Positions 23,186 to 43,045 of a DNA stretch of 64,000 bases are shown piece after piece (the stretch's first letter is position 1; every line of letters starts with the position of its first letter). The stretch comes from Candidatus Bathyarchaeota archaeon A05DMB-5. Its GTDB lineage: Archaea > Thermoproteota > Bathyarchaeia > Bathyarchaeales > Bathycorpusculaceae. The notes beneath the pieces were generated by a model, which was given only the letters and a program-made list of their open reading frames with translations, did not search any database and was not told the DNA's origin. The DNA is taken from NCBI GenBank assembly GCA_019685655.1, contig JABFQP010000004.1, positions 124,001 through 188,000 on the forward strand, given 5' to 3'. Made by a program: the position numbers and the translations under genes.

Positions 23186-24165
23186 TCTTTCATCACCTTC
23201 CTCTTCAAAATGGACGCTGGCAAAGCGTACATGTAGAACGACCCAATTGGGTCTTTAACTTGACTCATGAGCTTTTCAACATCCTCTTCCGTGTACTTTT
23301 CCTTCTCTTCTTCCAACCCGAGAATTGAAGCTAAAGCACTGATCATAGCTGCGCCTTGCTCGGGCGTGTTGGGACATGGACCGCCACAGCCAGTACATGG
23401 CATGTCAGCTTTTAAGCATCTGGCGCCGCATCCGCCTCTGGTCGCGGGTCCCATGCAGATTATTCCTTGTTCAAGCAAGCAACGCTCGGGCTCTGGAGTT
23501 TTTTCGTAAACGCGGTATATCTTGGAGATTTTCTTGTTCTCCTTCTTTCTTGGGCATTCATCACAGACTGATTTTAATGGCGCAAGCACAGAGCCTTTAG
23601 GCGGTAACTCGCCTTTGGCTATGGCTTCAACCGCGAATAATGTGCGTTCGACTGCTGGTGGACAGCCTGGAACGTAATAGTCAACGTCAACGACTTGGTC
23701 TAAGGTTCTGACTGTATCGTAAAATTCTGGAATGTCAACTTCTCCCTCTTTAACATGCACTGTGGGTTTTGGTGTTTTGTTTTCTGAGTTCGCCGTAGAG
23801 AAAGTCTTGAAATAGACTTTTTCGAAGATTTCCTTTTTGTTAGCTAAGTTTGCTAGTCCAGGAACTCCGCCGAGGTGGGCGCATGCTCCGTAGGCGATTA
23901 GGATTTTTGATTTTTGCCGCAAAAGCTTGGCGAGGTGTTCTTGTTCTGAGTTGCGTATTCCACCGTTGAAGAAGCAGACGTCGATGTTTTTGTCTGGCAT
24001 GGCTTCTACGTCTTTGTATTTTATGTCCATGGCTACTGGCCAGAAAACGATGTCAGCAATTTGTATAACGTCGAGGATTTTCTCGTTTATGTCCAAAACA
24101 GCGATTTCACAGCCTCCACAACTAGCAGCCCAATAAAAGGCTAGTTTCAACTTGTTTTTTGCCAT
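23182..24165 (-). CDS. mvhG: [NiFe]-hydrogenase small subunit, copy 1
   Basis: 327-residue iron-sulfur subunit. It has the proximal cluster motif YWAASCGGCEIAVLDINEK at the start and further cysteines in PGCPPAV, CDECPRKK and CGARCLKADMPCTGCGGPCPNTP. ATG 24165 is preceded by GGTGGGG at 6 bases, which decides against the in-frame start at 24177 that would overlap hdrB. Bases 23963-24081 are identical to the paralogue at 40796-40914, synonymous positions included, although the rest of the gene has diverged. Confidence 0.95.
   Translation of the reverse strand: MAKNKLKLAFYWAASCGGCEIAVLDINEKILDVIQIADIVFWPVAMDIKYKDVEAMPDKNIDVCFFNGGIRNSEQEHLAKLLRQKSKILIAYGACAHLGGVPGLANLANKKEIFEKVYFKTFSTANSENKTPKPTVHVKEGEVDIPEFYDTVRTLDQVVDVDYYVPGCPPAVERTLFAVEAIAKGELPPKGSVLAPLKSVCDECPRKKENKKISKIYRVYEKTPEPERCLLEQGIICMGPATRGGCGARCLKADMPCTGCGGPCPNTPEQGAAMISALASILGLEEEKEKYTEEDVEKLMSQVKDPIGSFYMYALPASILKRKVMKE
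23963..24081 (-). repeat. 119-bp tract identical to 40796-40914 (within mvhG copies)
   Basis: Base-by-base reading shows no mismatch between 23963-24081 and 40796-40914. The difference resumes immediately on both sides (A/G before, C/T after). It codes for the stretch from VIQIADIVFWP to KNIDVCFFNG. The identity includes third codon positions, which points to recent gene conversion between the two hydrogenase operons, not to protein-level constraint. Confidence 0.9.
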
Positions 24166-24166
24166 T

Positions 24167-25057
24167 TTATTCCCCACCTTCAGTAATATGCTTTAATATT
24201 TTAGAAGCGTCAACTCTAAGCTCGTTAAATGCAAGCTCTTCAGGCGACATGCCCATAGCTAAACCGAGCAATTGTGGATAATGCAGAACTGGAATGCCGT
24301 AAGTTTCGTTAAACATTTTTTCTATGCGCAACTCGTTAGTGTCGTACATTATGTGACAGAATGGACAAATTGTTATCAAAGCTTCTGCGCTGACTTGTTT
24401 AACATGGTTTAGTTTATCTCTTGCAAGTTGTAAGGCGACTTTGTCGCTTACGCCGACGCTTGGTGCTCCACAACATTCAGTCTCATCCATGTAATCTAAA
24501 CATGTTGCGCCTGTCGCTTCAATAAGCATCTTGAGCGTTTGGGGGTCTTCTGGGTCGTCGAATCCTATGTATTCTTTTGGTCGTAGTATGTGGCAACCGT
24601 TATGTTCCGCCACTTTAAGCATTGTGAGCGGTTTAACAACGGAATCTTTTATCTTTTCTAAGCCCACATCTTCCTTTAGAACTTGCATTATGTGCTTCGC
24701 GTTGACTGCTCCCTTAAACTCTAAGCCTGATTCTTTCAAATGCTTGTTTATTTCTTCCCGCAAGGCTTTGTCTTCTTTAAGCATCTTGTTAACTTTCTTC
24801 AAAGTTCCAGCGCAGCCGGGACACAGAGTGATAATGTCCAGTCCCTTTTGTTCAGCCAAAGCCAAATTTCTAGCTGCAAGAATTAGCATCATTTCGTGGC
24901 TGACTGGATCAAGCGGAAGACCGCAACAGTTGAATTCAGGCATTTCAACAAGCTCAACGTCTAGTTTCTGGAGAACCTTTCTCGCAGATATTTCATAAGC
25001 TGAAACACGGTATGGAATCGCGCATCCAAGGAAAATGAGATACTGATTCCTAGCCAT
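24167..25057 (-). CDS. hdrB: Heterodisulfide reductase subunit B-like, copy 1
   Basis: 296-residue protein with two CCG domains, the site of disulfide reduction on non-cubane [4Fe-4S] clusters in HdrB. First domain: FLGCAIPYR ... FNCCGLPLDP ... LCPGC; second: HNGCHILRP ... TECCGAPSVG ... CPFC. All ligand cysteines are kept. It lies 1 base upstream of mvhG and 3 bases after hdrC. The natural disulfide is unknown because CoM/CoB biosynthesis genes are not in the window. Confidence 0.95.
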   Translation of the reverse strand: MARNQYLIFLGCAIPYRVSAYEISARKVLQKLDVELVEMPEFNCCGLPLDPVSHEMMLILAARNLALAEQKGLDIITLCPGCAGTLKKVNKMLKEDKALREEINKHLKESGLEFKGAVNAKHIMQVLKEDVGLEKIKDSVVKPLTMLKVAEHNGCHILRPKEYIGFDDPEDPQTLKMLIEATGATCLDYMDETECCGAPSVGVSDKVALQLARDKLNHVKQVSAEALITICPFCHIMYDTNELRIEKMFNETYGIPVLHYPQLLGLAMGMSPEELAFNELRVDASKILKHITEGGE

Positions 25058-25060
25058 TTT

Positions 25061-25588
25061 CTACTCACCCTTCTTTTCAAGATGCTTTAGAAAGCTCACT
25101 CCATGAAGCGCTTTCTTTATACCTTCAGAATTGCCCCTTGGCAGTGGCGGCAACCCAAAAGTTTCTCGCTTCTTTATTCTCAAATCTGGAATTTTGTAAG
25201 CGTAGCCCGACTCAAGAATGCTCATAGCTTGCTCTTTAAACACTTGAGGCACTATGCCTTTTTCTGCGGCTAAATTGCGCAGTACGCGGATTACACTGGC
25301 TACTTCAACATCTTGCGGACAACGGTCTGTACACGTGAAACATGCTGCGCACAACCATAATGTGTCGCTGTTTAGCACGCGGTCTTTAAGTCCAAGCTGT
25401 GCCATGCGAATTATTTGTCTAGGGCGATATGTTTCGCTGAACTTTGCGACTGGGCAGTCAGATGTGCATGTTCCACACTGGAAACAGCGCATCAGTTTTT
25501 CTCCGCCGTGCATTTTTGCAATTTCATATTTGAATTTAGGATCCATTTCCGACGCTTTTATCGGCTCTTTCTCTTCAACTTCAGCCAT
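25061..25588 (-). CDS. hdrC: Heterodisulfide reductase subunit C-like, copy 1
   Basis: 175-residue iron-sulfur protein with two classic cluster motifs, CFQCGTCTSDCPVAKF and CAACFTCTDRCPQDVE. It links HdrA to the catalytic HdrB. ATG 25588 overlaps the stop of mvhD (TAATG). The length is typical of HdrC. Confidence 0.95.
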   Translation of the reverse strand: MAEVEEKEPIKASEMDPKFKYEIAKMHGGEKLMRCFQCGTCTSDCPVAKFSETYRPRQIIRMAQLGLKDRVLNSDTLWLCAACFTCTDRCPQDVEVASVIRVLRNLAAEKGIVPQVFKEQAMSILESGYAYKIPDLRIKKRETFGLPPLPRGNSEGIKKALHGVSFLKHLEKKGE

Positions 25589-26025
25589 TAAGCATTAACC
25601 TCCGCGTTTTTTAATGGGCTTGGTCCAAGCTTTTTTATTTGTTCAACCATGTCCCGCACGATTGCCGCGAACCTGTCACCTTCGCTGGCTGAAACCCACT
25701 CCAACCGTAAGCGTTCAGGTTCGATTCCGAAATCTTGAAGAACTTTCTTTAAAAGAGTTACCCTTCTTTGCGCTTTGAAGTTTCCACTAATGTAGTGGCA
25801 ATCTGAAGGCAGATGGCATCCGGCTACGAGCACGCCGTCTGCACCGTTTTTGAAGGCTTCGAGAATAAAGGTTGGGTCGATTCGGCCGCTGCACATGACG
25901 CGTATGATTCTTATATTTGGTGGATACTGAATTCGGCTTACTCCGGCCAAGTCTGCACCTGCATAGCTGCACCAGTTGCAGAGGAAACCTATAATTTTTG
26001 GTTCAAACCCGCTTTTCTCGGTCAT
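25588..26025 (-). CDS. mvhD: MvhD-like [2Fe-2S] electron-transfer subunit
   Basis: 145-residue delta subunit connecting hydrogenase to HdrA. Ligand pattern is intact: LCNWCSYAG (CxxC), [10 protein letters not shown] and [14 protein letters not shown]. It overlaps hdrA by 4 bases (ATGA) and hdrC by 1 base, so the electron path MvhAG - MvhD - HdrA - HdrBC is encoded in one coupled operon. A second MvhD lies at the promoter-proximal side of hdrA as a winged-helix fusion. Confidence 0.94.
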
Positions 26026-29000
26026 GCTTGCACCTCCACAAGTGCGGCTTTAACTTGAGCAAGTATCTCTTCCGTGGTGAAGTGACCCATTATGATGGCT
26101 TTGGTTGGGCATGCCGTGCCGCATGCTCCGCATCCTTTACATAATGCTTCAATTACGTGTGCTGTAAGCTTACCGTCTTTTTCCTTCATTTCTATGGCAC
26201 CGTACGGGCATAGATATTCACAAATCCTACAACCGCTACATAAATCTTCGTTCACGTTTGCCACAATTCCTTCCATCTCAAGCGTGGGTTTCGAAAGTAT
26301 GGTTGTAGCTCTTGCCGCTGCAGCGCATGCCTGCGCTATGCTTTCGTCGATGTATTTTGGTGAATGAGCAATTCCACACAAGAAAACGCCTTCGGTGGCA
26401 AAGTCAACTGGGCGGAGTTTCATGTGAGCTTCCAGGAAGAAACCGTCCTTTGTTAGTGGCACTTTAAGCATTTCGGCAATGCGTTTGTTGTCTGGGTTCG
26501 GGATTGTTGCGGCGCTTAAGATTAGAAAGTCTGGTTCGATTTCAACAGTTTCTTTCAAAACGGGCTCCCAGAAGGACACTTTTAACTTTCCGTCAACGTT
26601 TGCTACTTGCGGCTTTCTTTCGTCTTCATAATTTATGAATAGGACTCCTTTCTGTGCGGCTTCACGGTAATAGTCTTCTTTAAAACCGTAAGAGCGAATG
26701 TCCTTGAATAAAACGTAGACTTCTGTTTCAGGGCTTAGCTCTTTAATTTTTAAAGCGTTCTTTATCGCTTGTCCACAACATATCCGCGAGCAGTTCGGTC
26801 TTTCCTCGTTTCTAGCACCTACACATTGAATCATAACAACGTTTTTAGCTTTAAATTTGCCGTTCGCAAGCTTTTCTTCCAGTTCATGCTGTGTCATCAC
26901 CCGTGGGTCTTTACCGTAAAGGTATTCTTTTGGTTTGTATTCGGTTGCGCCTGTGGCAACTATGACGATGCCATGCTCAACTTCGTCCTCTTTACCGCTG
27001 TGCTTCTTTATTTTTGATTTGAAGTTGCCGACGAAACCGCTTACTTCAGCAACTTCCGAGTCTAAGTGAACGTGTATCTTCTCGTTTTCCATGACTTCTT
27101 TGATTAACTCGTTCAGTCTTTCTTTTGGGTTTTCCCCTTTTTCTAATAAATAGTGAATTGTGCGTAAGTGTCCGCCAAGCTCTTTTTCTCTCTCAACAAG
27201 ATGCACTTCAAACCCTTGCCTTGCAAGTTCAAGCGCCGCAGTCATGCCGGAAACTCCACCGCCTATGACCAACCCAACTGGCGTGACGCTGATTTCTGGT
27301 TTCTTAAGCGGCTTCAAAAGTTTGGCTTTAGCGACTATTGAGCGGACGAGGTCTTTGGCTTTTTCAGTGGCTTCTTTAGGCTCATGCATATGCACCCAAC
27401 TACACTGGTCGCGGATGTTGGTCATTTCGAACAAGTAGGGGTTTAAGCCTGCTTCTTGGACTGTTTCTCTAAAAAGCGGTTCATGCGTTCTAGGCGTGCA
27501 GGAGGCTACGACGACACGGTTCAGGTTGTGTTGTTGAATTTTTTCGCGGATGAGCTTTTGCGTGTCCTGCGAGCAAGTGTAGAGGTTGGCTTCAGCGTAA
27601 ACCACGTAGGGTAAGGTTTTAGCATATTCCACGACTTCGGGAACGTTGACGACTCCGCCAATGTTTATTCCGCAGTGACAGACGAAAACGCCTATGCGCG
27701 GTTCTTCTTGGCTGATGTCTCTTTCTGGCGGATACTCCTTGACTGTCACAAGTTTTCCTCTTTCAGTAGCTACAACATTCATTGCTTTGGCTGCTGCTCC
27801 GCTTGCTTGTGCGACGCTTTCTGGAATGTCTTTGGGAGCGCTGAAGGCTCCGCAAACGAATATGCCTGGTTTTGATGTTTCTAATGGCGTAAAGTGTCCG
27901 GTTTCACAGTAGTTGTATTTGTTGAGTTTTATTCCAAAAGCTTTAGCGAGTTTTTCAACGCTTTTTGGCGGTTGCATTCCGATGGATAGGACGACCATGT
28001 CGAATTCTTCGGTTTTCGGCGTTTCATCCTCAACATAGTGAACGAAGAGGTTGCCGGTCAACGGATCTTCAGTCACACCCGCAACTCTTGACCTCACAAA
28101 TTTTATGCCCCACTCTTCTTTAGCGCGGTTGTAGTAGGCATCGAATTCTTTTCCGTAAGCTCGCAAGTCCATGTAAAAGATTGTTGGCTCCAATTTGGTT
28201 GGTGTGTGTTCTTTGGCTATTACTGCTTCTTTCATGCCGTACATGCAGCACGCTGCGGAACAGTAAGTGTTGCCGAGCTGATAGTCTCTCGAACCTACAC
28301 ATTGAATAAACGCAATTTTCTTTGGAATCTCGCCGTCCGAAGGTCGCACGACGAGTCCGCCGTAGGGTCCGGATGCACTCAAGATGCGTTCGAATTCTAT
28401 GCTTGTCACCACGTTTGGATAGCGTCCATAACCATATTCGGTTTTCAATCTTGCATCGAAGGGTTCAAAGCCGGGTGCAAGTATAATTGAGCCGACTTTG
28501 AGTGTGGCTTCGCTGTCTTGTTGGTCGTATGCCACTGCCTTTGCTTTGCAGATTTCGTAGCATGTTCCGCAGCCAATGCATTTTTCACGGTCTATTTTGT
28601 ATTTGAGCGGAACTGCTTGTGGATAGTCAACGTAAATTGCGCCTCTTTCGCTTAAACCTTCATTATACATGTCAACAGCTTCAATTGGACATTTTTGTGC
28701 ACATAAGCCGCAACCGTTGCATTTGTCTTCGATTATGTAACGACTGCGTTTTCGAAGTTTTACTTCGAAGTTTCCAGCTTCGCCGTCTAAACCCAATATT
28801 TCAGTGTTTGTCAGAATCGTGATGTTCGGATGCCTTCCAGTTGCCACAAGTTTAGGCGAAAGGATACACATTGAACAGTCGTTTGTTGGAAATGTTTTGT
28901 CAAGCTGAGCCATGACGCCGCCAATGCTTGCGCCTTCATCAACCAAATACACCTTGAAGCCGGAATCCGCCAAATCTAACGATGCTTGTATACCAGCAAC

Positions 29001-29045
29001 TCCTCCGCCGACGACTAAAACAGCTCCAACTTTGTCTTTTGCCAT
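26022..29045 (-). CDS. hdrA: Heterodisulfide reductase subunit A, long tandem form
   Basis: 1007-residue flavoprotein, the proposed electron-bifurcating core. The N-terminal part (about 1-440) has its own FAD fold ([19 protein letters not shown]) and two clusters ([24 protein letters not shown]). From about residue 455 a complete HdrA follows: thioredoxin-reductase-like iron-sulfur domain ([28 protein letters not shown]), second FAD fold ([19 protein letters not shown]) and C-terminal clusters [12 protein letters not shown] and [12 protein letters not shown]. Common HdrA is about 650 residues, so this is a two-flavin form. ATG 29045 is chosen because GGAGGT lies 9 bases before it; the alternative GTG is at 29051. 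Confidence 0.94.
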
Positions 29046-29047
29046 TT

Positions 29048-29803
29048 TCACTTAACCTCCAAAGCCTTGTAAAAGGGAGTTTGACCTTCCACATGGTCTA
29101 AGGCTATCATGTTTCTACGGCGCATGTCAACAATCTGCCTTAACACCGCCGCAGGTTTCATTTCAATCATTTCTGCCAAGTTCTTCACGGAGAAGGGTTT
29201 GGTTTTGGTTAAGACGTAGATTTTGTGTCGAACAAACTCTTCTTTTACGATTTCATCTAGCAACTCATCAAATTCGTCTTGCGACAGCTTTTCGCCGTAA
29301 ACGTTAACGCCTTCAGTTAGCTCCTTTTCTCTGCCAAGCAAAACTCTCAACCGAAAATCTGAAGCGGCGTTCTTGGCTGCTGAGAGGTTAACCTTGATTT
29401 TTGGAGCTAAATCCTTGTTTCGCAACGGAGAAAACCCAAGTTTTCCAATTTCTCTGGAAAACTCTTTGGCATAATATTCAAAGTTCTTCTCATCTAATGG
29501 TGAATGCCAAACTAATTTTATGCGTTGAGGCTCCAAGCCACCTAATGCAACGAGTTTTGTGAGCATTTTTACGGCGCGTTCTGCTTGAAGGTTTCCTTCC
29601 TGATAGTGACAGTCTGGTGGTTTGCAACCCACGAGCATGACGCCATCAACTCCGTTCACAAGTGTGTCCAAAACGAGGACTGGGTCCACTCTTCCAAGAC
29701 ACATGATTCGAACAACATTAACGTTTGAGGGAACTTCGGTTTCGTTTTGACAAAAAGCCCAGTTACACATGAAACAAACAATTTTAGGGTCGTCTGCTTC
29801 CAT
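29048..29803 (-). CDS. MvhD-like subunit fused to a C-terminal winged-helix domain
   Basis: 251 residues. Residues 1-130 are an MvhD domain with intact cluster ligands (FMCNWAFC, IMCLGRVDP, VGCKPPDCHYQEGN). After a helical linker, residues about 195-251 read as a winged helix: KPFSVKNLAEMIEMKPAAVL, IVDMRRRNMIALDHVEGQTP and FYKAL. The extra part may bind a partner subunit or DNA; nothing in the sequence decides which. It sits between the GltD-like gene (2-base gap) and hdrA (stop overlapping the alternative hdrA start), so it is an operon member and a likely second electron entry to HdrA. Confidence 0.85.
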   Translation of the reverse strand: MEADDPKIVCFMCNWAFCQNETEVPSNVNVVRIMCLGRVDPVLVLDTLVNGVDGVMLVGCKPPDCHYQEGNLQAERAVKMLTKLVALGGLEPQRIKLVWHSPLDEKNFEYYAKEFSREIGKLGFSPLRNKDLAPKIKVNLSAAKNAASDFRLRVLLGREKELTEGVNVYGEKLSQDEFDELLDEIVKEEFVRHKIYVLTKTKPFSVKNLAEMIEMKPAAVLRQIVDMRRRNMIALDHVEGQTPFYKALEVK

Positions 29804-29805
29804 TT

Positions 29806-31527
29806 TTATTGTCCCTCCGCTTTTGCCAAAGCAAGACTCATAATTTGCTCGTTAGGCGTCTTCTTCATCGTTATCGCTTGCTCTGGGCAACGTGCAGCAC
29901 ATATTCCGCAGCCTTTGCAAAGGTCTTCGTTTACTCTGGCAATTTCTCTTTCATCCTTTTTGACGGCGCCAAACGGGCAAACAACCGCGCACACGTTACA
30001 GCCTACGCAGAGGTTTTCGTCAACAACTGCCTTGTCGCCTTCACAAAGCTCCAAGCTTGCAAGACATTCTGCGCATGGTCCGCATCCCAAACAGCGAAAA
30101 GCTTCAAACATTGCTTTCTGCTTTGTTCTTTCTAAATATTCAGCTGCTTCCTCAAAGCTCAAACGCGGCTTTTCTATTGGCGGCTCATATCTTCGTTCTT
30201 TCTTTTTCAAGGAACCCCAGTTTTTAACCCACGTTACTTCTTCAACAGCGTCGTCTCTTCCTTTTCGCAAATCTTGTCCAGTCAAGTAGAGATGGATGGA
30301 AACAGCTGCTCTTTTGCCGGCTCCAACGGCTTCAATTATGCTCGCCGGGCCAGTGGCTATGTCGCCTCCTGCAAACACGCCGGGCATGTTGGTTTCTAAT
30401 GTTAATGGGTCAACTTTCATTGATGGTGCTCTTGCTTCTTTGTCCAGAAGCTCTTTAGGTATGCACGCAGACTCTGCAACTTGTCCCAGCGCAGGAATTA
30501 CCATGTCCACTTCATATTGATGTTCAGAAAAACTTATTGGGACAGGGCGTCTTCTTCCACTCTCGTCTGGTTCGCCTAATCGCATTCGCAAGCATTCTAT
30601 GGCTTTGACCTTGCCATTTTCGCCTATGATTTGTTTTGGCGCGACTAAGAAATAGAATTTTACGCCGTCTTTTTCAGCTAACTCCACTTCATGCGGTAGC
30701 GCAGGCATCTCTTCACGAGAACGCCTATACAGTATCATGACTTCTTTTGCGCCGAGTTTTTTAGCTGTTCTTGCAGCATCTATTGCGCTGTTTCCACCGC
30801 CAACAACCGCAACTTTCTCGCCGACTTCAACACGTTCTCCAAGCGCAATTTTTCTCAGGAAATCCACGGCGTTTATGACACATTCCAAATCTTCGCCTGG
30901 CACGTTCAGTTTCATGCCAAGCTGTGTTCCAATAGCTAGAAAAACGGCTTTGTAACCATCTTTGCGTAAGCTTTCAATTGTAATGTCTTTTCCAAATTCC
31001 ACGCCAGTTTTTATCTCCACACCCAAATCTTTGATGTAGGCGATTTCGTTTAATACAACAAATTTTTCAAGGCGAAAATCTGGTATGCAATACCGCATCA
31101 TGCCGCCGGGTTCAGACATACGTTCAAAAACAGTTACGTGATAGCCAAGTTTTACAAGTTCGTAGGCTGCCGTTATGCCAGCTGGACCTGCGCCGATTAT
31201 GGCAATTTTTTCCTTATGTTTCTTTGGTATGGGTTTTGGTTTTACGCGTTCATACTCACGTTCTACGTCGGCAACAATCCTTTTTAGAGCGCGGATAGCT
31301 ACGGCTTGGTCCACGTTTGTTCTTGCACATGCATCCTCGCAAGGGCTGAAACAGACTCTTCCACAAATTGCGGGAAAAGGCATGTCTTGCCTTATGAGTT
31401 CGACTGCTTCTTTGAATTTGCCTTTTTGGAGCAGAGCGACGTATCCTTGAACGTTGACGCGTGCTGGACAGGCTGAGCGGCATGGTGGCAGTTGTCTCTT
31501 TACATTTGTGCTACTACCACTTGTCAT
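29806..31527 (-). CDS. GltD/NfnB-like FAD-NAD(P) oxidoreductase with C-terminal ferredoxin domain
   Basis: About 573 residues. The N-terminal cluster domain (CRSACPARVNVQGYV, CGRVCFSPCEDAC) is followed by FAD fold IAIIGAGPAGITAAYELV, NAD(P) fold VAVVGGGNSAIDAARTAKKL, and GGDIATGPASIIEAVGAG. The C-terminus adds CLGCGPC, CVGCNVCAVVCP and CKGCGICAARCP clusters. This layout suits NAD(P)H:ferredoxin-type electron transfer. It is the first gene of the hdrA cluster 1 operon, so NAD(P)H may be an alternative donor or acceptor to H2. Start ATG 31527 (MTSGSSTNVK) is preferred over TTG 31569; a TTAATATAA box lies 40-50 bases upstream of it. Confidence 0.9.
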   Translation of the reverse strand: MTSGSSTNVKRQLPPCRSACPARVNVQGYVALLQKGKFKEAVELIRQDMPFPAICGRVCFSPCEDACARTNVDQAVAIRALKRIVADVEREYERVKPKPIPKKHKEKIAIIGAGPAGITAAYELVKLGYHVTVFERMSEPGGMMRYCIPDFRLEKFVVLNEIAYIKDLGVEIKTGVEFGKDITIESLRKDGYKAVFLAIGTQLGMKLNVPGEDLECVINAVDFLRKIALGERVEVGEKVAVVGGGNSAIDAARTAKKLGAKEVMILYRRSREEMPALPHEVELAEKDGVKFYFLVAPKQIIGENGKVKAIECLRMRLGEPDESGRRRPVPISFSEHQYEVDMVIPALGQVAESACIPKELLDKEARAPSMKVDPLTLETNMPGVFAGGDIATGPASIIEAVGAGKRAAVSIHLYLTGQDLRKGRDDAVEEVTWVKNWGSLKKKERRYEPPIEKPRLSFEEAAEYLERTKQKAMFEAFRCLGCGPCAECLASLELCEGDKAVVDENLCVGCNVCAVVCPFGAVKKDEREIARVNEDLCKGCGICAARCPEQAITMKKTPNEQIMSLALAKAEGQ

Positions 31528-31644
31528 TGTTAAACCAGCTTGATGTAGAATACTATCCTTATCTACCAATTATATTAAGTCACCTAAATCAAATTTAACT
31601 CAAAAATGACATAAAACAGTAAGGGAAAAAGAGGAAAATTGGAG

Positions 31645-32253
31645 CTACTCGCGCAGTCTTCCTTCCAGTTTGTTAACCAGCTTGTTGTATTCTCTTGGAC
31701 CCAGTAAACCTTTGAGTTCTTGTTCTAAAACCAACGAGTTCTTCGGTTTTATCTCCACAATCCAACCTTCGCCGTAGGGGTCTTCGTTGATTATATTTGG
31801 TTCATTCCTAAGCTTCTCGTTAACTTTGGCTATTTTACCGCTGACTGGCGCATAGAGGTCAAACATGAACATCCAAGTTTCCGCAACACCGAAAGGCTCC
31901 ATCTTGTTAACTTCTTTACCAACCGCTTCAGTCATTACGTGGGCTATTCCTTTCAAGTGCCTCTGTGCATAGTCAGATACGCCTACACGGATGTTTCCTT
32001 CAGGCGTGACTTGAGCCCATGTGTGCTTGGGCGTGTAGAGCAACAGTTCTGGTGTGACCAGAAGCTCCTTGCGTTTTTCTGCTGGGATTCCTTGGGTGCG
32101 CATGAGTTCTTCTAAGCGAAGGCGGATGGCTTCTGAGACGAATTCTGATATGCTTCTGTAGCGTCCTGTTTTGATTGCTTCTTCGATTTCTTTTATGAGT
32201 TCTGTTCTTAGGCTTACGGTTTTCCATTCTGATGTTTTTTCTTTTTCATTCAT
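31645..32253 (-). CDS. Ribbon-helix-helix domain fused to an H-protein-like domain without lipoyl lysine
   Basis: 202 residues. Residues 9-52 match a CopG-type ribbon-helix-helix DNA-binding domain (KTVSLRTELIKEIEEAIKTG, then RYRSISEFVSEAIRLRLEEL). Residues 70-190 match glycine-cleavage H protein (LLYTPKHTWAQV, RVGVSDYAQRHL, FDLYAPVSGKIAKVNEKL, NEDPYGEGWIVEIKP). At the lipoylation site, where H proteins read ESVKA, this protein has ETWMF: the lysine is methionine 128. It therefore cannot be lipoylated in the usual way. GGAGGT 9 bases before ATG 32253 gives a confident start. It lies just upstream of the hdr/mvh operon. A regulator built on an H-protein fold is the best reading. Confidence 0.88.
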   Translation of the reverse strand: MNEKEKTSEWKTVSLRTELIKEIEEAIKTGRYRSISEFVSEAIRLRLEELMRTQGIPAEKRKELLVTPELLLYTPKHTWAQVTPEGNIRVGVSDYAQRHLKGIAHVMTEAVGKEVNKMEPFGVAETWMFMFDLYAPVSGKIAKVNEKLRNEPNIINEDPYGEGWIVEIKPKNSLVLEQELKGLLGPREYNKLVNKLEGRLRE

Positions 32254-32332
32254 TTTACATCAACCTCCTTTACATCTGATTGATATATGGCGCAAGTCAG
32301 AAATATATATCTAATGCATATATTTTATTTAT

Positions 32333-32345
32333 AGTAAATACCATA
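32333..32345. promoter_or_regulatory. 13-bp element AGTAAATACCATA, copy 1 (putative operator)
   Basis: The 13 bases AGTAAATACCATA recur exactly at 32748-32760. This copy lies 80-92 bases upstream of the ribbon-helix-helix/H-protein-like gene, directly next to a TATA-like run (32316-32333). Regulatory role is inferred from position and exact repetition only. Confidence 0.35.
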
Positions 32346-32401
32346 TTAATCTAAACAACTGGCATACTTATATACACATTAGCCTTCCACCCGTCGCTAA
32401 C

Positions 32402-32608
32402 TTATTCTTTTATTCTGCCAAAATTTGACAAGTTCCACATACGTTCATGCACGTAGTAAACAACCGTTTTTACAACAAGCTCTGTGATTCCAACAACAGT
32501 TCCCAAGGTCAGGTCCTTACTAAATACGAACACCAAAAGTATCGTTGTCAAAGTTGCAACAACCCTCCAAGAAACTGCCTTCACTAAACTTCTAATTGGT
32601 TTCTCCAT
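32402..32608 (-). CDS. Small membrane protein, DUF2061 family
   Basis: 68 residues. The signature RSLVKAVSWRVVATLTTILL followed by a short turn and GITELVVKTVVYYVHERMW is that of DUF2061 proteins, which have two membrane helices and no known biochemical role. It is a single-gene unit between the H-protein-like gene and the divergent PhoU-type regulator. Confidence 0.85.
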   Translation of the reverse strand: MEKPIRSLVKAVSWRVVATLTTILLVFVFSKDLTLGTVVGITELVVKTVVYYVHERMWNLSNFGRIKE

Positions 32609-32747
32609 CTACACACTTCCAACCGAGACTCTTTAATAAGCAACGAAGAAACATAAGTAACTTTCCACCCGCATGTTTTTTACGAAAGCCAACATGATAT
32701 GTAGTTTTAACGCAAAAATATAGTAAGGCATATAAAAAGCAAATAGT

Positions 32748-32760
32748 AGTAAATACCATA
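32748..32760. promoter_or_regulatory. 13-bp element AGTAAATACCATA, copy 2 (putative operator)
   Basis: Exact repeat of 32333-32345. A TATA box (TATAAAAA, 32731-32738) precedes it, so the copy covers the expected transcription start of the PhoU/AbrB gene, whose GTG is 6 bases further on. That is where a repressor site would sit; autoregulation is a possibility. Confidence 0.4.
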
Positions 32761-32766
32761 AACGCG

Positions 32767-33852
32767 GTGAACTTTTTGGAAAGCAGAAAAGTGCAAAAAG
32801 TAGGATATTCAACAATGACCGTGTCACTGCCAAGCGAATGGGCAAAACAAAACAACATCAACCCCGGCGACATCGTCTTCCTCTTGCCCGAAAAAGACGG
32901 CACACTAAAAATCGTGCCAAGCCACGTGGCACAAAAAGAAGAAGCCGATGAATACATAATAAATGCTGACGCTTGCGACGAGCACGGATTGCTTGAGAGA
33001 ATAATCGTTGGAAGCTACATACTAGGACGTGATGTCATAAGAGTAACCTCTTCAACCAGAATAGGAAAAGAGCATGTTGACGAAATCCGCCGAATTGTCC
33101 GCAAACTAATAGGATTAGGCATTCTCGAAGAAACTCCGAAAAACATTCTTTTACAATGCTCTGTCGACCCAGCCAAATTCAAACTTGACATGCTAATCAG
33201 GCGGTTATCTCTAATTTCGTCAACAATATTGTCTGAAACGATGCAAGCTTTTCTAGAAGGAAATGAAACCTTAGCCATAGAAGCCATAAACCGTGAAGAC
33301 GAAGCCGACACAATCTACTATTTAGCGGTGCGTCTGCTTTTGGCTGCGCAGCAAAAACCAGAAATTGCAGAACAAACGGGCGCGACAGACGTGGTCTTCA
33401 TTCCTGCAACACGCTTGATACTTCAATATTTAGAATTGATTGCAGACTACTCAGAAGACATGGCTAAAAAAATTATCGATCTCGAGGTATATCGCCGAAA
33501 ATTGCCGAAGAACGTGATTGAAAAAATCTATCATCTAAGTGAGTTAACGCAAACCATTTTTCAGAAGGCTTTGGATTGCGTTTTCACACGTGACCTCAAA
33601 GTTGCAAACAGCGTGCTAGAAATGAAGAGCGTACTCCAAACTGAATCGGACAAACTTATGCGGGAAATTCCTGAAATTCCGTATTTGAGGGCAATAATTT
33701 CGTGTTTGAACAAAATTGCAGATAAAGGCGCCACAATAGCAGACATCGCCATTAACAGAGCGCTAGAGCAACCGAGTAAGGAAGTGGAGAACATTATTCG
33801 CACAGTAAAACATGTGCGGACTTTACCATTAGCCGCGAAGAAGAAAACTTAG
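32767..33852 (+). CDS. AbrB-PhoU domain regulator (phosphate-uptake-regulator-like)
   Basis: 361 residues. The N-terminus is a SpoVT/AbrB-type DNA-binding fold (ESRKVQKVGYSTMTVSLPSE, then WAKQNNINPGDIVFLLPEKD), a common archaeal arrangement. The remainder is alpha-helical with two PhoU-like repeats (from about residue 140 and 240; EAINREDEADTIYYLAVRLL is typical). Such proteins are usually called phosphate uptake regulators, but no pst transporter is nearby, so the true signal is open. GTG 32767 is the start, with a TATA box at 32731-32738 and a very short leader. Confidence 0.87.
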   Translation: MNFLESRKVQKVGYSTMTVSLPSEWAKQNNINPGDIVFLLPEKDGTLKIVPSHVAQKEEADEYIINADACDEHGLLERIIVGSYILGRDVIRVTSSTRIGKEHVDEIRRIVRKLIGLGILEETPKNILLQCSVDPAKFKLDMLIRRLSLISSTILSETMQAFLEGNETLAIEAINREDEADTIYYLAVRLLLAAQQKPEIAEQTGATDVVFIPATRLILQYLELIADYSEDMAKKIIDLEVYRRKLPKNVIEKIYHLSELTQTIFQKALDCVFTRDLKVANSVLEMKSVLQTESDKLMREIPEIPYLRAIISCLNKIADKGATIADIAINRALEQPSKEVENIIRTVKHVRTLPLAAKKKT

Positions 33853-34763: not shown

Positions 34764-35639
34764 TTATGTGATCTTACTCAGCACTTTGTCCAATCGGATT
34801 TTATGGAAGTCAAGTGCAAGTTCTTTAGGGTCTATTCCCAACGCTAGGCTTAGAAGTTCAGCGTAATGGATAACGGGTATGTTGTATTCTTCCTTGTAAG
34901 CAGATTTTATCAGCATTTGCCCAAGGTCTAAAGTTAAGAAGCAGAAGGGACAGAGTGTAACAATACAATCGGCGCCTGCTTTTGTTGTGTTAACGATTTT
35001 GTCGCGGGCAATCGCTAACGCAACATCGTCGGCATAACCTCTCAAAAGTCCTCCACAACATTTCAGTTTGTTTCGATACCAGATGCTTTTTGCGCCTAAT
35101 GCTTCGATTAAATCGTCAAAGATGTGCGGGCGTTCTGGGTCGTCAAACTTCAAAAGCGCACTTGGTCTCAGCAAATGACACCCTGAAAATGATGCTACTT
35201 TAAGACTGCTCAAATCTTTAACGACGCTCTTCTTTAAGCGTTCTAAACCGACATCGTCCATTAAGACTTTCAAGTAATGTTTTACTTCCTTGGTTCCTTT
35301 GAATTCTTCGCCGGCATTGGATAAGATTTTGTTGACTCTTGCTTTCAGTTTTGAGTTTTCTTTCAGTAGGTTGTTTGCCATGGCCAGGGATTCGAAACAG
35401 CCAGTGCACAATGTTACTATGTCGAGGTCGGCTTCTTCGGCTAGGCAAATGTTATGTGCGGCGATTGCTAGGCTGGTTTCCATGTCTATGGATTGTAGGG
35501 GTGGTGGAGCGCAGCATGTCATGTTGTCTAGGTCGACGAGCCCTATTCCAAGTCTGGTTAAGGCTTTTCGTGCTGATGCTTCATAATGTGGTTGACGGGC
35601 TGGTATGGTGCATCCTAAAAAGAGCGCGTAACTTGTCAT
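34764..35639 (-). CDS. hdrB: Heterodisulfide reductase subunit B-like, copy 2
   Basis: 291 residues from ATG 35639 (MTSYALFLGC), which overlaps the stop of hdrC copy 2 by 4 bases. Two CCG-type domains: LGCTIPARQ ... MTCCAPPPLQ ... LCTGC and FSGCHLLRPS ... LKCCGGLLRG ... CPFC. The first domain has CCA in place of CCG, but all cysteine ligands are present. It is the last gene of the second hydrogenase-Hdr operon. Confidence 0.93.
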   Translation of the reverse strand: MTSYALFLGCTIPARQPHYEASARKALTRLGIGLVDLDNMTCCAPPPLQSIDMETSLAIAAHNICLAEEADLDIVTLCTGCFESLAMANNLLKENSKLKARVNKILSNAGEEFKGTKEVKHYLKVLMDDVGLERLKKSVVKDLSSLKVASFSGCHLLRPSALLKFDDPERPHIFDDLIEALGAKSIWYRNKLKCCGGLLRGYADDVALAIARDKIVNTTKAGADCIVTLCPFCFLTLDLGQMLIKSAYKEEYNIPVIHYAELLSLALGIDPKELALDFHKIRLDKVLSKIT

Positions 35640-36154
35640 GGCGTTCCTTCCTTCTTCCACTGTATTTTATCAAATCCTGTTGCAGCAAGTATTTTTTTCA
35701 TCGCATCCAAGCCTGCTGGCCTAAGCGGCGGCAAGCCGTATTCGGGTCTTTTCTTTTCCACAAATTTGGATGTTGGAACTATGCGTCCTTCGTTCATCAG
35801 TCCAGTTGCGAATTCCGAGTAGATGTTTGGTATGTGTCCTTCTTTGATGGCTATGTTTCTTAATGCGTAGATAACATCTGCTATTTCGACTTTCTGCGGA
35901 CACCTTTCTTGGCAGTTGTAGCATGAGCTGCATAGCCAAATGGCGCCGCCTGAGAGAACTTCTTGTTTCTCGCCTAAAAGTGAGAGTCTAATAATGTCTC
36001 TTGGGTTGTAGCGTTCGGTGGTTTTGGCGACTGGGCAACTGCTGGCGCATGTTCCACATTGATAGCATAAGGTTATGGTTTCGCCGCCTAATTGGCTTCT
36101 TATCTCGTCCGAAAATGAGGTTGCAGAGGTTTTTTGTTCTTTTTTATGCTCCAT
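35636..36154 (-). CDS. hdrC: Heterodisulfide reductase subunit C-like, copy 2
   Basis: 172 residues with the two cluster motifs CYQCGTCASSCPVAKT and CSSCYNCQERCPQKVE. I place the start at ATG 36154 because AAGGAG lies about 8 bases before it; GTG 36181, which overlaps the hdrA stop by 4 bases, is a possible alternative. It connects the HdrA-MvhD fusion to HdrB copy 2. Confidence 0.93.
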   Translation of the reverse strand: MEHKKEQKTSATSFSDEIRSQLGGETITLCYQCGTCASSCPVAKTTERYNPRDIIRLSLLGEKQEVLSGGAIWLCSSCYNCQERCPQKVEIADVIYALRNIAIKEGHIPNIYSEFATGLMNEGRIVPTSKFVEKKRPEYGLPPLRPAGLDAMKKILAATGFDKIQWKKEGTP

Positions 36155-36177
36155 TATGTTTTCTCCTTCTGTTGGAG

Positions 36178-38589
36178 TCACATTAACTGCAGTGGACCGA
36201 GCTTTTCTATTCTTTCAGTCATCATTTGCGCGGCTTCTGCGAATTTGTCGCCTTCTATGAAAACCATGTGTAACATTTCTAAACGTTCTGGCTCTATGCC
36301 GTATTCTTTTAACAGCACTTTTGCAAGGTCTACTTTCTTTTGAGCCTTTTGACTGCCGACTTCGTAATGGCAACCGTCAGTTTTGCATCCTACAACCATG
36401 ACCCCTTGAGCGCCAGCTTTGAAGGCTTGCAGGAACTGGTGGACTTGTAATATGCCGGTGCATGGGACTTTCATTACTCTGACGTTGGCTGGATACTGCA
36501 TCATCGCCATGCCCGAAGAGTCCACGGCCGTGTGACCACATTCTGAACAGGTTATAGCAAGAATCAACGGTTTGGAGGTTCCATTCACAGATAAGAGCGC
36601 GTTCATTTGGGCTTCCATTTGTTTTGGTCGTGAGTGTCTAAGTTCTATGGCGTTGACTGGGCATGTGCCAACACAGATGCCGCATCCTTCACATTTGAGG
36701 TCGGACACTTGCGCAACAAAGTGGTCTTCACCTTTAGGCACTAGAGTTATGGCGTTGAATGGGCAGATGACTGGACAGAACTCGCAGTCTCCGCAGTATT
36801 CTTCATTCACAAAGGCTGTTCTCTGGTCTTTGATTATCTTACCAGTGGACAAGAACTTAGCGGCTTTCACGGCTGCCGAGTGAGCGTGCAGAGAACTTGT
36901 TGGAGCATCTTTGGGGAAGGTTGCGCCTCCGCACAGGTAGACGCCTCTGATTTTGGTTTCTGTGGGTCTCAGTTTGGCGTTGTATTCTTTGAAAAAGCCG
37001 TCTTGGTCAAGTTCTATTCCGAGCATTTCAGCAAGTTCTTTTGTGTCTTCTGATGGCACCATGGCGGTGGCTAAAACTACTAGGTCGGCTTCGAGTTCGA
37101 AGAATCTTCTTAGGATGGCGTCTTCAACGTCTACGATTAAGATGTTTCCGTCTGGGTCGTGTGAAATTTCTGTTGGTCTGCCTTTAACGAATTTTATTCC
37201 CATTTCTCGGGCTTTTTCGTAATAGTATTCGTGTTCTCTTCCGGTTGTTCTGATGTCGATGTAGCAGATGGTAATGTCCGTGTCTGGATATGCAGATTTA
37301 ATCAGCATTGCGTTTTTCAGAGATATCATACAGCAGATGCTTGAGCACCATGGGTTCCATCGTCGGTCTCGTGAGCCGACACATTGGATAAAAACGATTC
37401 TTTTGGCGGGTTTACGGTCTGAAGGCTTGATGATTGCGCCGTTTGTAGGTCCGAAACCGTCAATCATTCTTGCAAGTTCAAGATTGGTTATCACATTGGG
37501 ATATTCGCCGTAGTGATATTCTTTTATCACGCTTGGGTCGTACTCTTTAAAGCCCGTAGCGACAATTATGCCGCCAACATTAAGCGTTAACTTCTCAGTT
37601 TTCTGGTTCAATTTGACAGCTTTTGTGGGGCAAATCTCCACGCATTTAGCGCATTCTTGGAATTTGCAAGCACTCTCGTCGATTACGTAGACTGGCGGAT
37701 GAACCGGCGGAGTGTTTATGTAAATTGCCTTTCGTGTTTTCAGCTTCGCATTGTATTCGTCTGGCACTTCTACTGGACAGACTGTTGTGCAAAGGTCGCA
37801 GCGAACACATTTAGATTCGTCAACGTAGCGTGGTTTTTTCTCAATCGTAACCTTGTAGTTTCCAGGAACCCCTTCAACCTTGACAACTTTTGAGTTGGTT
37901 AATATGTTTAGGTTTGGAATTTCGGAAAATCCAGAGCGGTAAACGCATTTTCTTGAAGTGTGAGTTATAGCTTTCACGTCGGAAGCTGGAGATTGTATGC
38001 AGATGGCACAGTCGTCTGTTGGAAAGAATCTTCCAGCACGAGCAGCCAAACCGCCAAGAAATGGAGCTTTCTCAATAAGATGCACCTCAAATCCCAAATC
38101 AGCCAAATCTTCAGCAGCTTGCATCCCAGCGATTCCGCCGCCTATCACAAGAACAGACTTGACAGCTGGAAACTCCAGCTTTTCCAATGGTTCTAGAAGT
38201 TTGGCGCGTTCAATGGCGGCAGAAAGCATTGCTTTGGCTTTTTCTGTAGCTTCTGATGGTGTGTCTCGGTGAGGCCATGCGCAGTGGTCTTTGAGGTCTA
38301 TAACTTCCACTAGGTATGGGTTAAGCCCAGCTTCCTCTGCGGCTTTTACGATTGCTATTTCGCTCAGTTTGGGAAGAGTTTCTGCTACGACTAGTCGGTT
38401 TATTTTTTTGCTTTTGATGGCGTCCACGATGGTTTTTAGTCCTTCGCCTCTCCAGAACTCGTTTCCTTGCACAACAAGAGCTACGCCTGAAACTTTCTTC
38501 ACATGTTCTGTTAGGGCTTTGAAATCCAGTATTTCTGAGAGTTGTTTTCCACAATTAGACAGGAATACTCCAACTTTTGCTTCTTCCAT
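36178..38589 (-). CDS. hdrA: HdrA-MvhD fusion protein (copy 2), N-terminal iron-sulfur domain degenerate
   Basis: 803 residues. Order: N-terminal thioredoxin-reductase-like domain (1-135), FAD fold VLVIGGGIAGMQAAEDLAD, clusters CVRCDLCTTVCP and CKFQECAKCVEICP, HdrA flavin domain, C-terminal clusters CGDCEFCPVICP and CEGCGICVGTCP, and an MvhD domain from about 670 with intact ligands (ITCSECG, VPCTGILQ, GCKTDGCHYEVG). The N-terminal domain has lost the cysteines seen in the two other HdrA proteins of this window: FVCHCG is FLSNCG and VVASCTPR is VVAETLPK. The MvhD fusion makes the hydrogenase link permanent, as in the HdrA2 type of Methanosarcina. Confidence 0.93.
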   Translation of the reverse strand: MEEAKVGVFLSNCGKQLSEILDFKALTEHVKKVSGVALVVQGNEFWRGEGLKTIVDAIKSKKINRLVVAETLPKLSEIAIVKAAEEAGLNPYLVEVIDLKDHCAWPHRDTPSEATEKAKAMLSAAIERAKLLEPLEKLEFPAVKSVLVIGGGIAGMQAAEDLADLGFEVHLIEKAPFLGGLAARAGRFFPTDDCAICIQSPASDVKAITHTSRKCVYRSGFSEIPNLNILTNSKVVKVEGVPGNYKVTIEKKPRYVDESKCVRCDLCTTVCPVEVPDEYNAKLKTRKAIYINTPPVHPPVYVIDESACKFQECAKCVEICPTKAVKLNQKTEKLTLNVGGIIVATGFKEYDPSVIKEYHYGEYPNVITNLELARMIDGFGPTNGAIIKPSDRKPAKRIVFIQCVGSRDRRWNPWCSSICCMISLKNAMLIKSAYPDTDITICYIDIRTTGREHEYYYEKAREMGIKFVKGRPTEISHDPDGNILIVDVEDAILRRFFELEADLVVLATAMVPSEDTKELAEMLGIELDQDGFFKEYNAKLRPTETKIRGVYLCGGATFPKDAPTSSLHAHSAAVKAAKFLSTGKIIKDQRTAFVNEEYCGDCEFCPVICPFNAITLVPKGEDHFVAQVSDLKCEGCGICVGTCPVNAIELRHSRPKQMEAQMNALLSVNGTSKPLILAITCSECGHTAVDSSGMAMMQYPANVRVMKVPCTGILQVHQFLQAFKAGAQGVMVVGCKTDGCHYEVGSQKAQKKVDLAKVLLKEYGIEPERLEMLHMVFIEGDKFAEAAQMMTERIEKLGPLQLM

Positions 38590-38599
38590 TTTTCATCCC

Positions 38600-40057
38600 T
38601 CACCTTCTCAACTTTCTTACTAAACGCCTTTCGCTGTCGTAAATTTCAACCTCAAGCGGCATCTCGCCAACAGCAAAGTGTGTAGCACAAGCAAAGCAAG
38701 GGTCATAAGCCCTGAAAGCCATCTCAACCATGTTCAATATGCCATCGCTAACTTTACCATTGCGTATCAAGCCCTTTGCCGCGTTCTTAATAGACATGCA
38801 AATGCCCGGCGCGTTGTGGGTTGTAGCCACTATCAAGTTGACTTTTTTGGCTAAGGCTTTCTCGTCAAGTATGTAATGGTGAATAAGCGTTCCTCTGGCT
38901 GCTTCCACGATGCCTACGCCTTCTCCGGGCTTTCCAGGCTTGTTCTTGATGTCCTTCCTTGTTATGTCAGGGTCTGTTACTAGCTCCAAAGCGCGTTCAG
39001 CCGCGTATAGAAGCTCAATTAATCGTGCCCAGTGAAAAGCCAAAGTGGCGTGGACAGGTTTGCCGCCGAGAGTTTTGTACATTCTCTTGTATTCTTCATT
39101 CGCTAATGGCGTTGCCATGCCTTCAGCAGCGTTTAATCTGCCTAAGGGCCCAACACGGTATATGCCGCTTTCCTCACCGTCAACAAATCCGTTCCATCCA
39201 ATTTTTTTCAGGTAGGGCAGTTTAACGTAAGTCCAAGGTTCAACGTGTTCTTCAATAACATCTAAGTATTCTGAAGGGGCAAATTTCACGAATTCTTTCC
39301 CGTTCGGGTCTACAACTCGAACTTTGCCGTCATAGAAATTCACATGATTGTTTTTGTCAACGGTTCCCATGTAGTAGGTTTTCAATGTGTATGGTTCGCT
39401 TTTAACTAGGTTCACGTAATCAGCGTTTTTGAGAACTATGTCGTCAAAGAGTTTCAGGCTGAACTTTGCAAACTCCACGCAGCTTCTAACCATCGTTTCT
39501 ATTTCTTGCCTTTCTTCCTCAGACAAAGCCTTAGCGATTCCGCCAGGCACGCAAGCGCTCACGGGATGAGTGGGTCTTCCGCCGAGCATGCCGGTTATTT
39601 TTTGTCCATAAGCCCTATGCTTTATCACTTCTTTGCCGATTTCTAATCCAGCCTTTTCTATTACGCCGAGAACGTTTCTTTTTGCTGGTGGAGCGTCTGG
39701 TCCAACAACTAAGTCTGGACCGCCTAAGAAGTAGAAGTGTAAGATGTGGTCGTAAATGTAGTAGGCGACATACTCCAGTTCTCTCAGTTTCTTGGCTGTT
39801 TCTGTGGGTTCCACGTTAAACGCTGCGTCTAGGGCTTTGGCGCTTGCCATGTGATGCGCAACTGGACATACACCGCAGATTCTCGTGGTTATTATGGGTA
39901 GGTCCTCGGCCCTTCTTCCTTCGCAGAACTTTTCGAAGCCTCTGAGTTCTGGAACTTGGAAGTAAGCGTTTTCCACGTCGCCTTTGTCGTTTAGGAATAT
40001 GGTTATTTTTCCGTGCCCTTCAAGTCGAGTTATTGGGTTTATTACTATTTCTTTCAT
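38600..40057 (-). CDS. mvhA: F420-non-reducing-type [NiFe]-hydrogenase large subunit, copy 2
   Basis: 485 residues, closely related to copy 1 throughout. Nickel ligands are RICGVCPVAHH near residue 60 and DPCFACATHF (C454, C457) near the end, with a removable tail of about 25 residues. It overlaps mvhG copy 2 by 4 bases and is followed after 10 bases by the HdrA-MvhD fusion. No protease gene accompanies this cluster. Several DNA stretches shared with copy 1 are nearly unchanged (for example around 39010-39045 and 22140-22175), consistent with occasional conversion. Confidence 0.95.
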   Translation of the reverse strand: MKEIVINPITRLEGHGKITIFLNDKGDVENAYFQVPELRGFEKFCEGRRAEDLPIITTRICGVCPVAHHMASAKALDAAFNVEPTETAKKLRELEYVAYYIYDHILHFYFLGGPDLVVGPDAPPAKRNVLGVIEKAGLEIGKEVIKHRAYGQKITGMLGGRPTHPVSACVPGGIAKALSEEERQEIETMVRSCVEFAKFSLKLFDDIVLKNADYVNLVKSEPYTLKTYYMGTVDKNNHVNFYDGKVRVVDPNGKEFVKFAPSEYLDVIEEHVEPWTYVKLPYLKKIGWNGFVDGEESGIYRVGPLGRLNAAEGMATPLANEEYKRMYKTLGGKPVHATLAFHWARLIELLYAAERALELVTDPDITRKDIKNKPGKPGEGVGIVEAARGTLIHHYILDEKALAKKVNLIVATTHNAPGICMSIKNAAKGLIRNGKVSDGILNMVEMAFRAYDPCFACATHFAVGEMPLEVEIYDSERRLVRKLRR

Positions 40058-40992
40058 TTCATTATCTTCCTCCGCAATATCGAGTTGGCAAGAGAATACT
40101 TGTAGAAAGTTCCAACGGGGTCAACAATCTTTTTAATAACGCTTGGGTCTGTGGCTATGGATGCCAGAGCACTTATCGCTGCAGCGCCTTGGTCGCTCAC
40201 GCGCGGCGCTGGACCACCACAGCCAGTGCATGGTATGTTCACTTTGGGACATTGTGCGCCGCATCCTGCGCGTGTTGCGGGTCCCATGCAGATGACTTGC
40301 TGGTCCCAGAAGCACGTTTTGAAGTCATCGTCTATTTCGTAGATTCTTTTTATTTCGTGGAGTTTTCGGTCTTTCTTTTCTCTTGGGCATTCATCGCAAA
40401 CTGCCTTTGTCGGAAGGAGACTAGAGCCTTTTGGCGGGAGTTTGCCGCTTGCTATTGCTTCGATGGCTTGGAGGATGCATGGGATTGGCGGTGGACATCC
40501 AGAGAGGAAGTAATCCACGTCTACGGTTTGAGCTAAAGTTTTCACAGTGTCATAAAACTCTGGCAGTTCAAGTTCTCCTTCTTTCACTTTTAATGAAGTT
40601 TGCGGGGTTACAGAACGCGGGTTTTTTGTTGATGGAGTTTCAAAATATGCTCTTTCGAAGATTTTCTCTTTGTTCCAAAGGTTTCCGAGGCCTATTACGC
40701 ATCCGTCGCATGCGCATGAGCCGAATGCTACAAGGGTTTTGGATTTTTGTCTTAGGAGTTTTGCCATGTGCTCGTTTTCTTCGGTTCTTATGGCGCCGTT
40801 GAAGAAGCAGACGTCGATGTTTTTGTCTGGCATGGCTTCTACGTCTTTGTATTTTATGTCCATGGCTACTGGCCAGAAAACGATGTCAGCAATTTGTATA
40901 ACGTCGAGGATTTTTTCATTTATGTCCAAGACGGCGATTTCGCAGCCTCCGCAGCTTGCTGCCCAGTAGAAGGCAACTTTAAGCTTGTTCAT
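40054..40992 (-). CDS. mvhG: [NiFe]-hydrogenase small subunit, copy 2
   Basis: 312 residues. The N-terminal proximal-cluster motif YWAASCGGCEIAVLD and the following 50 residues are almost identical to copy 1, then similarity falls. Later cysteines: GSCACDGC, SGCPPPIP, CDECPREK, CGAQCPKVNIPCTGCGGPAP. The start ATG 40992 has GGTGA 4 bases upstream. It opens the leftward operon mvhG-mvhA-hdrA/mvhD-hdrC-hdrB, with a long AT-rich leader region in front. Confidence 0.95.
   Translation of the reverse strand: MNKLKVAFYWAASCGGCEIAVLDINEKILDVIQIADIVFWPVAMDIKYKDVEAMPDKNIDVCFFNGAIRTEENEHMAKLLRQKSKTLVAFGSCACDGCVIGLGNLWNKEKIFERAYFETPSTKNPRSVTPQTSLKVKEGELELPEFYDTVKTLAQTVDVDYFLSGCPPPIPCILQAIEAIASGKLPPKGSSLLPTKAVCDECPREKKDRKLHEIKRIYEIDDDFKTCFWDQQVICMGPATRAGCGAQCPKVNIPCTGCGGPAPRVSDQGAAAISALASIATDPSVIKKIVDPVGTFYKYSLANSILRRKIMK
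40796..40914 (-). repeat. 119-bp tract identical to 23963-24081 (within mvhG copies)
   Basis: Partner of the tract in copy 1; identical at every base, bounded on both sides by mismatches. Confidence 0.9.
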
Positions 40993-43043: not shown

Positions 43044-43045
43044 TG

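Follow-up and report, generated by a model that had tools for sequence, protein, structure and literature searches.

A ribbon-helix-helix protein with an H-protein fold lacking the lipoyl lysine, a candidate regulator of an Hdr/Mvh operon in Bathyarchaeia

A 64,000-nucleotide stretch of DNA from Candidatus Bathyarchaeota archaeon A05DMB-5 (hereafter, the window) encodes a protein, RHH-GcvH, in which a ribbon-helix-helix (RHH) domain is fused to an H-protein domain that has lost its lipoyl lysine. On balance, we favor the interpretation that RHH-GcvH acts locally as a transcription factor for the Hdr/Mvh operon that follows it, with the H-protein fold reused as a sensor or docking module. The original prediction of an H-protein fold turned transcription factor agrees with the domain fusion, the lysine loss, the locus and a conserved promoter palindrome, whereas we infer DNA binding by the protein, its ownership of the palindrome, the direction of control and the signal. 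The gene and its parts are as follows.

31645 to 32253, minus strand: RHH-GcvH fusion protein (P0001), 202 aa (open frame and translation; homologues in 41 of 201 relatives)
32098 to 32229, minus strand: RHH domain, residues 9-52 (RHH_1 match, model helices, NikR RHH match with the family profile)
31672 to 32046, minus strand: H-protein-like domain, residues 70-194, in which the lipoyl lysine is missing (Pfam GCV_H, E 6.8e-30; structural match to 3ab9)
31870 to 31872, minus strand: codon of Met128 (motif ETWMF), which replaces the lipoyl lysine (alignments)

The proposed fusion of an RHH domain to a nearly full H-protein domain is borne out by Pfam matches, a structure model and full-length homologues in 38 genomes. 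The H-protein domain matched Pfam GCV_H (residues 71-194, E 6.8e-30) and NCBIfam PRK01202 (E 5.2e-35), and remained below the threshold of the gcvH equivalog TIGR00527 (99 bits versus a cut-off of 116). RHH_1 matched residues 12-49 of the window protein (E 8.8e-4) with 19.6 bits, just below the Pfam cut-off of 20.5, and 11 of 25 aligned family members at E ≤ 0.01 (best 4.4e-6). A search of the PDB with the family's RHH profile gave the RHH region of NikR as its best sensible match (E 0.01). An AlphaFold model based on 25 homologues places helices at residues 10-28 and 35-53, so that both the sequence and the helix pattern of an RHH domain are present. Model confidence was high across the H-protein part (pLDDT ~90), for which Foldseek returned the lipoylated Escherichia coli H-protein 3ab9 (TM-score 0.93 by target length). 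The RHH half was less certain, with blocks at pLDDT 58-73, as expected when an obligate dimer is modeled as a monomer. Since full-length homologues from 38 genomes contain both domains in one protein, a frameshift or annotation artefact fusing two genes, including the possibility that the RHH part belongs to an upstream gene, was ruled out.

Alignments confirmed that methionine 128 (ETWMF) replaces the lipoyl lysine, and an isolated mutation was ruled out, as none of the 49 distinct RHH-fused homologues carries lysine at this position (37 Met, 8 Trp and four others: 2 Leu, 1 Phe and 1 Asn). The new motif around the lost lysine, ETW[MW]F, is well conserved, with W127 and F129 each found in 46/49 homologues; lysine-bearing H-proteins mostly have V/T and A/S/T at these positions. 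In pea H-protein, Glu14, the acidic residue of the SHEW/EHEW motif, holds the methylamine arm. The equivalent position is T78 in the window protein and T, V, I, M or L in all 49 fused homologues, never Glu, which occupies it in 55 of 69 lysine-bearing H-protein sequences. Structural residues (H77, G91, G122, P136, G139, N145, P152 and W164) are kept throughout the 49. Such retention, together with the loss of both lysine and the Glu14 equivalent, indicates that the H-protein fold was retained and its carrier chemistry eliminated. A tree of the H-domain, computed without the columns of the lysine region, separated all lysine-less proteins from the rest by a single branch (SH-aLRT 98; one change), although its few columns make finer branching unreliable. 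Lysine loss would hence most simply be a single event. A few lysine-less H-proteins have no RHH domain (L052/L198 and L126).

RHH-GcvH was identified in 41 of 201 relatives (38 full length, and three as pieces at contig ends), comprising four families (f1, f6, f7 and f9) of one Bathyarchaeia order; named records are Candidatus Bathyarchaeota. Matches to the ETW[MW]F DNA pattern across 398 genomes of the phylum were confined to the same four families, and a scan of 84,980 species yielded fusions solely in Bathyarchaeota among the best 80 matches listed. Two tandem paralogues occur in nine genomes, usually an ETWMF copy paired with one that has ETWWF or an ETxxWP insertion.

Comparison with known systems sets RHH-GcvH apart from each of them. 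It resembles GcvH (PF01597) in its whole fold and conserved structural residues, but differs in the Met or Trp at the lipoyl position, the T, V, I, M or L at the Glu14 equivalent and the additional RHH domain; on these grounds, a role as a lipoyl carrier was ruled out. A lysine-bearing GcvH is encoded separately in the genome, next to an Lpd-like gene, and GcvP, GcvT and LplA are also present, making RHH-GcvH surplus to glycine cleavage. Like NikR-type regulators, which serve nickel and hydrogenase physiology, RHH-GcvH combines an N-terminal RHH domain with a C-terminal domain that does not bind DNA. Unlike in NikR, this sensor part is an H-protein fold (GCV_H) rather than an ACT domain with nickel ligands; no equivalent of the nickel site was found in RHH-GcvH, and the NikR model scored 16.5 (cut-off 119) and matched the RHH part only. 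RHH-GcvH also shares with LbpA, the lipoate-binding protein of sulfur-oxidizing Hdr-like systems, its H-protein ancestry and a location beside hdr genes. However, all 95 LbpA proteins retain the lysine and most have two cysteines (PMC6067878), whereas the window protein has neither that lysine nor any cysteine and carries an RHH domain; it is thus not an LbpA.

The gene had been described as standing directly before an Hdr/Mvh operon, and this holds: it lies 5' of, and is co-directional with, genes for a GltD-type flavoprotein, MvhD, HdrA, MvhD, HdrC, HdrB, MvhG and MvhA. A divergent regulator lies on its other side.

29806 to 31569, minus strand: opening gene of the downstream operon, a GltD/NfnB-like FAD flavoprotein with ferredoxin at its C-terminus (Pfam and NCBIfam)
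21731 to 29803, minus strand: MvhD-like protein with C-terminal extension, HdrA, MvhD, HdrC, HdrB, MvhG and MvhA (open reading frames, FlpD Pfam, NCBIfam HdrA2/VhuG/VhuA)
32402 to 32608, minus strand: DUF2061 membrane protein, between both regulators in some genomes (Pfam DUF2061, 4.3e-19)
32767 to 33852, plus strand: divergent regulator with AbrB/MazE-type DNA-binding and PhoU domains (Pfam PhoU, 1.5e-17; MazE_antitoxin, 2.9e-8)

The operon encodes a hydrogenase-Hdr-flavoprotein set of the electron-bifurcating kind, which we describe as hydrogen- and NAD(P)H-linked and energy-conserving. McrA was not found in the genome, making it unlikely that the operon serves Mcr-based methanogenesis. Some 20 different loci with sufficient sequence downstream, from all four families, share the gene order: a divergent AbrB-PhoU gene, an optional DUF2061 gene, one or two RHH-GcvH genes, the GltD-like flavoprotein with ferredoxin, extended MvhD, HdrA, MvhD, HdrC, HdrB and often MvhG and MvhA. 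The flavoprotein is the next gene after RHH-GcvH in most loci with enough sequence. A TauE/SafE transporter takes this place in three g45-type loci of one genus (L037, L039 and L044; Pfam match tested for L039 and L044) and lies between RHH-GcvH and the flavoprotein in L045, and two genomes (G162 and G136) have RHH-GcvH with no Hdr operon beside it.

The neighbors also follow the fusion in their distribution. AbrB-PhoU, usually divergent on the other side of RHH-GcvH, is ~52%-98% identical among carriers versus 22%-40% in 25 non-carriers, where the matches are distant paralogues (with the exception of one 53% copy at a contig edge, G096). The flavoprotein is 61%-97% identical among carriers versus at most 52% in the 25 non-carriers. 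Apart from that copy, close orthologues of both proteins were not found in the 25 genomes without the fusion, indicating that both regulators and the operon are co-inherited, being present or absent as a unit. Further features of the locus were observed. The MvhD (FlpD) at 29048-29803 has a C-terminal extension of ~130 residues resembling a helix-turn-helix, with Pfam covering the MvhD part alone, and phosphate regulation is perhaps not the role of the AbrB/MazE-PhoU regulator (32767-33852) here. Two paralogous Hdr-Mvh operons (21731-29051 and 34764-40992) flank the RHH-GcvH/phoU region, of which just one is headed by the regulator and flavoprotein. Genes for YeeE/Sulf_transp and DsrE adjoin the second operon (window 42696-44095), and in another locus DsrE, DsrE and DsrH are located beside it (L042:1-1276), a link to sulfur.

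H-proteins and RHH proteins also occur separately near Hdr genes in the same order. Lysine-bearing H-proteins are encoded between HdrB/HdrC and HdrA or Lpd-like genes (L187:8700-9224, L189:7588-8058 and L195:4793-5263); they share the H-fold and Hdr neighborhood with RHH-GcvH, but keep the lysine and have no RHH domain. These are candidate LbpA-like carriers of archaeal Hdr systems, and connect H-proteins with Hdr in this order as separate proteins. A further conserved lysine-bearing H-protein of 155 aa (L193:9070-9537, L196:8101-8568, L197:8837-9304, L199:8756-9223 and L205:134-601) adjoins a conserved pair of ~230-aa genes, a pair not seen in L205, where the contig end cuts. RHH proteins with a Cys/His-rich C-terminal tail (TYTCTND...CPMFGWF...GCKEKKKHCTWF; L203:7178-7537 and L204:7695-8054, both minus strand) are divergent from a fused HdrA-GltD flavoprotein, HdrC and HdrB; the L203 protein had no Pfam match, and a structure model of this type was too poor for use (pLDDT 48). 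Another short RHH protein is encoded close to RHH-GcvH at L118:11261-11620 (plus strand). The position of the Cys-tailed proteins suggests that control of Hdr operons by an RHH domain plus sensor may recur in the order, and the separate occurrence of RHH and H-proteins near Hdr genes suggests that both halves of such a regulator would be natural there.

Regions upstream of RHH-GcvH share a conserved dyad, ATAGTAnnTACTAT, with a mostly TT center. The window contains the following candidate elements.

32331 to 32344, no strand assigned: candidate operator ATGGTATTTACTAT as read on the minus strand (11/12 arm bases match ATAGTAnnTACTAT; place conserved across genera)
32746 to 32759, no strand assigned: second candidate operator ATGGTATTTACTAC as read on the minus strand (10/12 arm bases; ends ~8 bp before the phoU start)
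32301 to 32314, minus strand: TATA-like element TTAGATATATATTT, putative promoter (read from the sequence; aligned block conserved upstream of orthologues)

Counting one sequence per genus, the palindrome was found at -115 to -70 in 18 of 22 genera (≥9/12 arm bases), compared with a mean of 1.2 and a maximum of four genera in shuffled upstream sequences (300 trials); the consensus was derived from these same, related regions, and hence the shuffles indicate a conserved element rather than a calibrated probability. Scores were below 9 in the other four genera, including the g45 example. The first base of the first candidate operator is 91 bp upstream of the RHH-GcvH ATG, with the TATA-like block downstream of the operator. 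Exactly two sites with ≥10/12 arm bases occur in the 64-kb window, one per divergent promoter. Binding sites had been suggested in two regions, of which 32254-32350 contains the first predicted operator, while 31528-31644, between RHH-GcvH and the flavoprotein gene, has no palindrome of this type with ≥10/12 arm bases. Most carriers have the palindrome 8 to ~40 bp upstream of the phoU start, with perfect 12/12 copies in L034, L035 and L041. Where DUF2061 intervenes (window, L034 and L035), each promoter has its own copy, and thus the site probably serves both genes. Second-in-tandem RHH-GcvH genes sit inside the operon; upstream of the nine such genes, the first motif scan found no copy, no half-site and no score above 8 occurred, and their mean best score was lower (7.2 versus 9.5). 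A pattern scan of ten genomes for a wider regulon gave nothing clearly above a backward-pattern control except the genes' own promoters. G000 has one additional match with at most one mismatch, close to where a PAS histidine kinase gene begins; this was at control level and is probably due to chance.

Based on these results, we propose that the RHH domain would dimerize and bind the short palindrome in its own promoter and at the divergent phoU start. The lysine-less H-fold, also without the methylamine-arm residue, would act as a sensor or docking module that alters DNA binding in response to demand for the electron-bifurcating Hdr-Mvh-flavoprotein complex. In archaeal promoters, a site upstream of TATA suits activation and a site at the start region suits repression. 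Following this logic, the site upstream of the TATA-like element would activate the RHH-GcvH/Hdr operon, and the site overlapping the phoU start region would repress phoU. The signal may be a sulfur compound or some protein partner within the redox system. Hints of a link to sulfur come from the TauE/SafE neighbor, from the YeeE/Sulf_transp and DsrE genes beside the second Hdr operon, and from the DsrE and DsrH genes there in L042. The original prediction envisaged a reading of carrier or thiol status. Thiol sensing through cysteines of its own is excluded for the window protein, which contains none, and would therefore need a ligand or partner. A more specific version, which we regard as speculative and quite improbable, is that the hydrophobic tip (W-M/W-F) of the hairpin that once held lipoyl-lysine docks into the pocket or tunnel with which a redox partner reads lipoate, and so reports the occupancy of that partner to the RHH domain, with tandem Met and Trp paralogues forming a heteromeric sensor. 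The partner may be the operon flavoprotein, an Lpd-like enzyme or a lysine-bearing H-protein client.

Other explanations of the same evidence were considered. Because AbrB/MazE-type domains bind DNA, and AbrB-PhoU is co-inherited with RHH-GcvH and has the palindrome shortly before its own start in most carriers, the divergent regulator could be what binds the palindrome, with RHH-GcvH a partner, a co-regulator or acting elsewhere. We consider this unlikely but worth keeping in mind. The palindrome tracks RHH-GcvH too, as seen from the separate copies flanking DUF2061, and distant AbrB-PhoU homologues in non-carriers have no palindrome, although they are also more divergent. Moreover, dyads with arms of 5-6 bp, such as this one, suit RHH dimers.

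It is also conceivable, if rather doubtful, that the RHH domain is a dimerization module alone and that the protein helps to assemble or dock the Hdr-Mvh-flavoprotein complex, using the hairpin tip (W-M/W-F) as a protein contact. Operon position and co-inheritance would fit any operon-specific accessory protein, the former lipoyl-lysine hairpin is now strongly hydrophobic, and other Hdr clusters contain lysine-bearing H-proteins. Nonetheless, polar residues of the RHH segment still alternate as in a strand that reads DNA (T12, S/R14 and R16), its invariant RHH positions are kept, the promoter palindrome calls for a local DNA binder, and one genus has TauE/SafE after the gene and no Hdr operon. 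The loss of both lysine and the Glu14 equivalent could also describe a functionless, degenerate H-protein paralogue, but this is hardly credible and is contradicted by conservation of the open frame and motif across four families and 41 genomes, with tandem variants retained.

RHH factors that carry a sensor at the C-terminus have been described before, and literature searches found no paper describing the RHH-GcvH architecture, in which the sensor would be an H-protein fold lacking its cofactor site. Bathyarchaeia are abundant, mostly uncultured archaea in which gene control is little studied, and RHH-GcvH and its palindrome provide a concrete, testable candidate regulator and operator for their Hdr-based electron bifurcation. 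The protein looks like a clear case, apparently of single origin, of a carrier protein taken over for regulation, and if the hairpin does act as a docking sensor, a cofactor-carrier fold would have been converted to a regulatory sensor.
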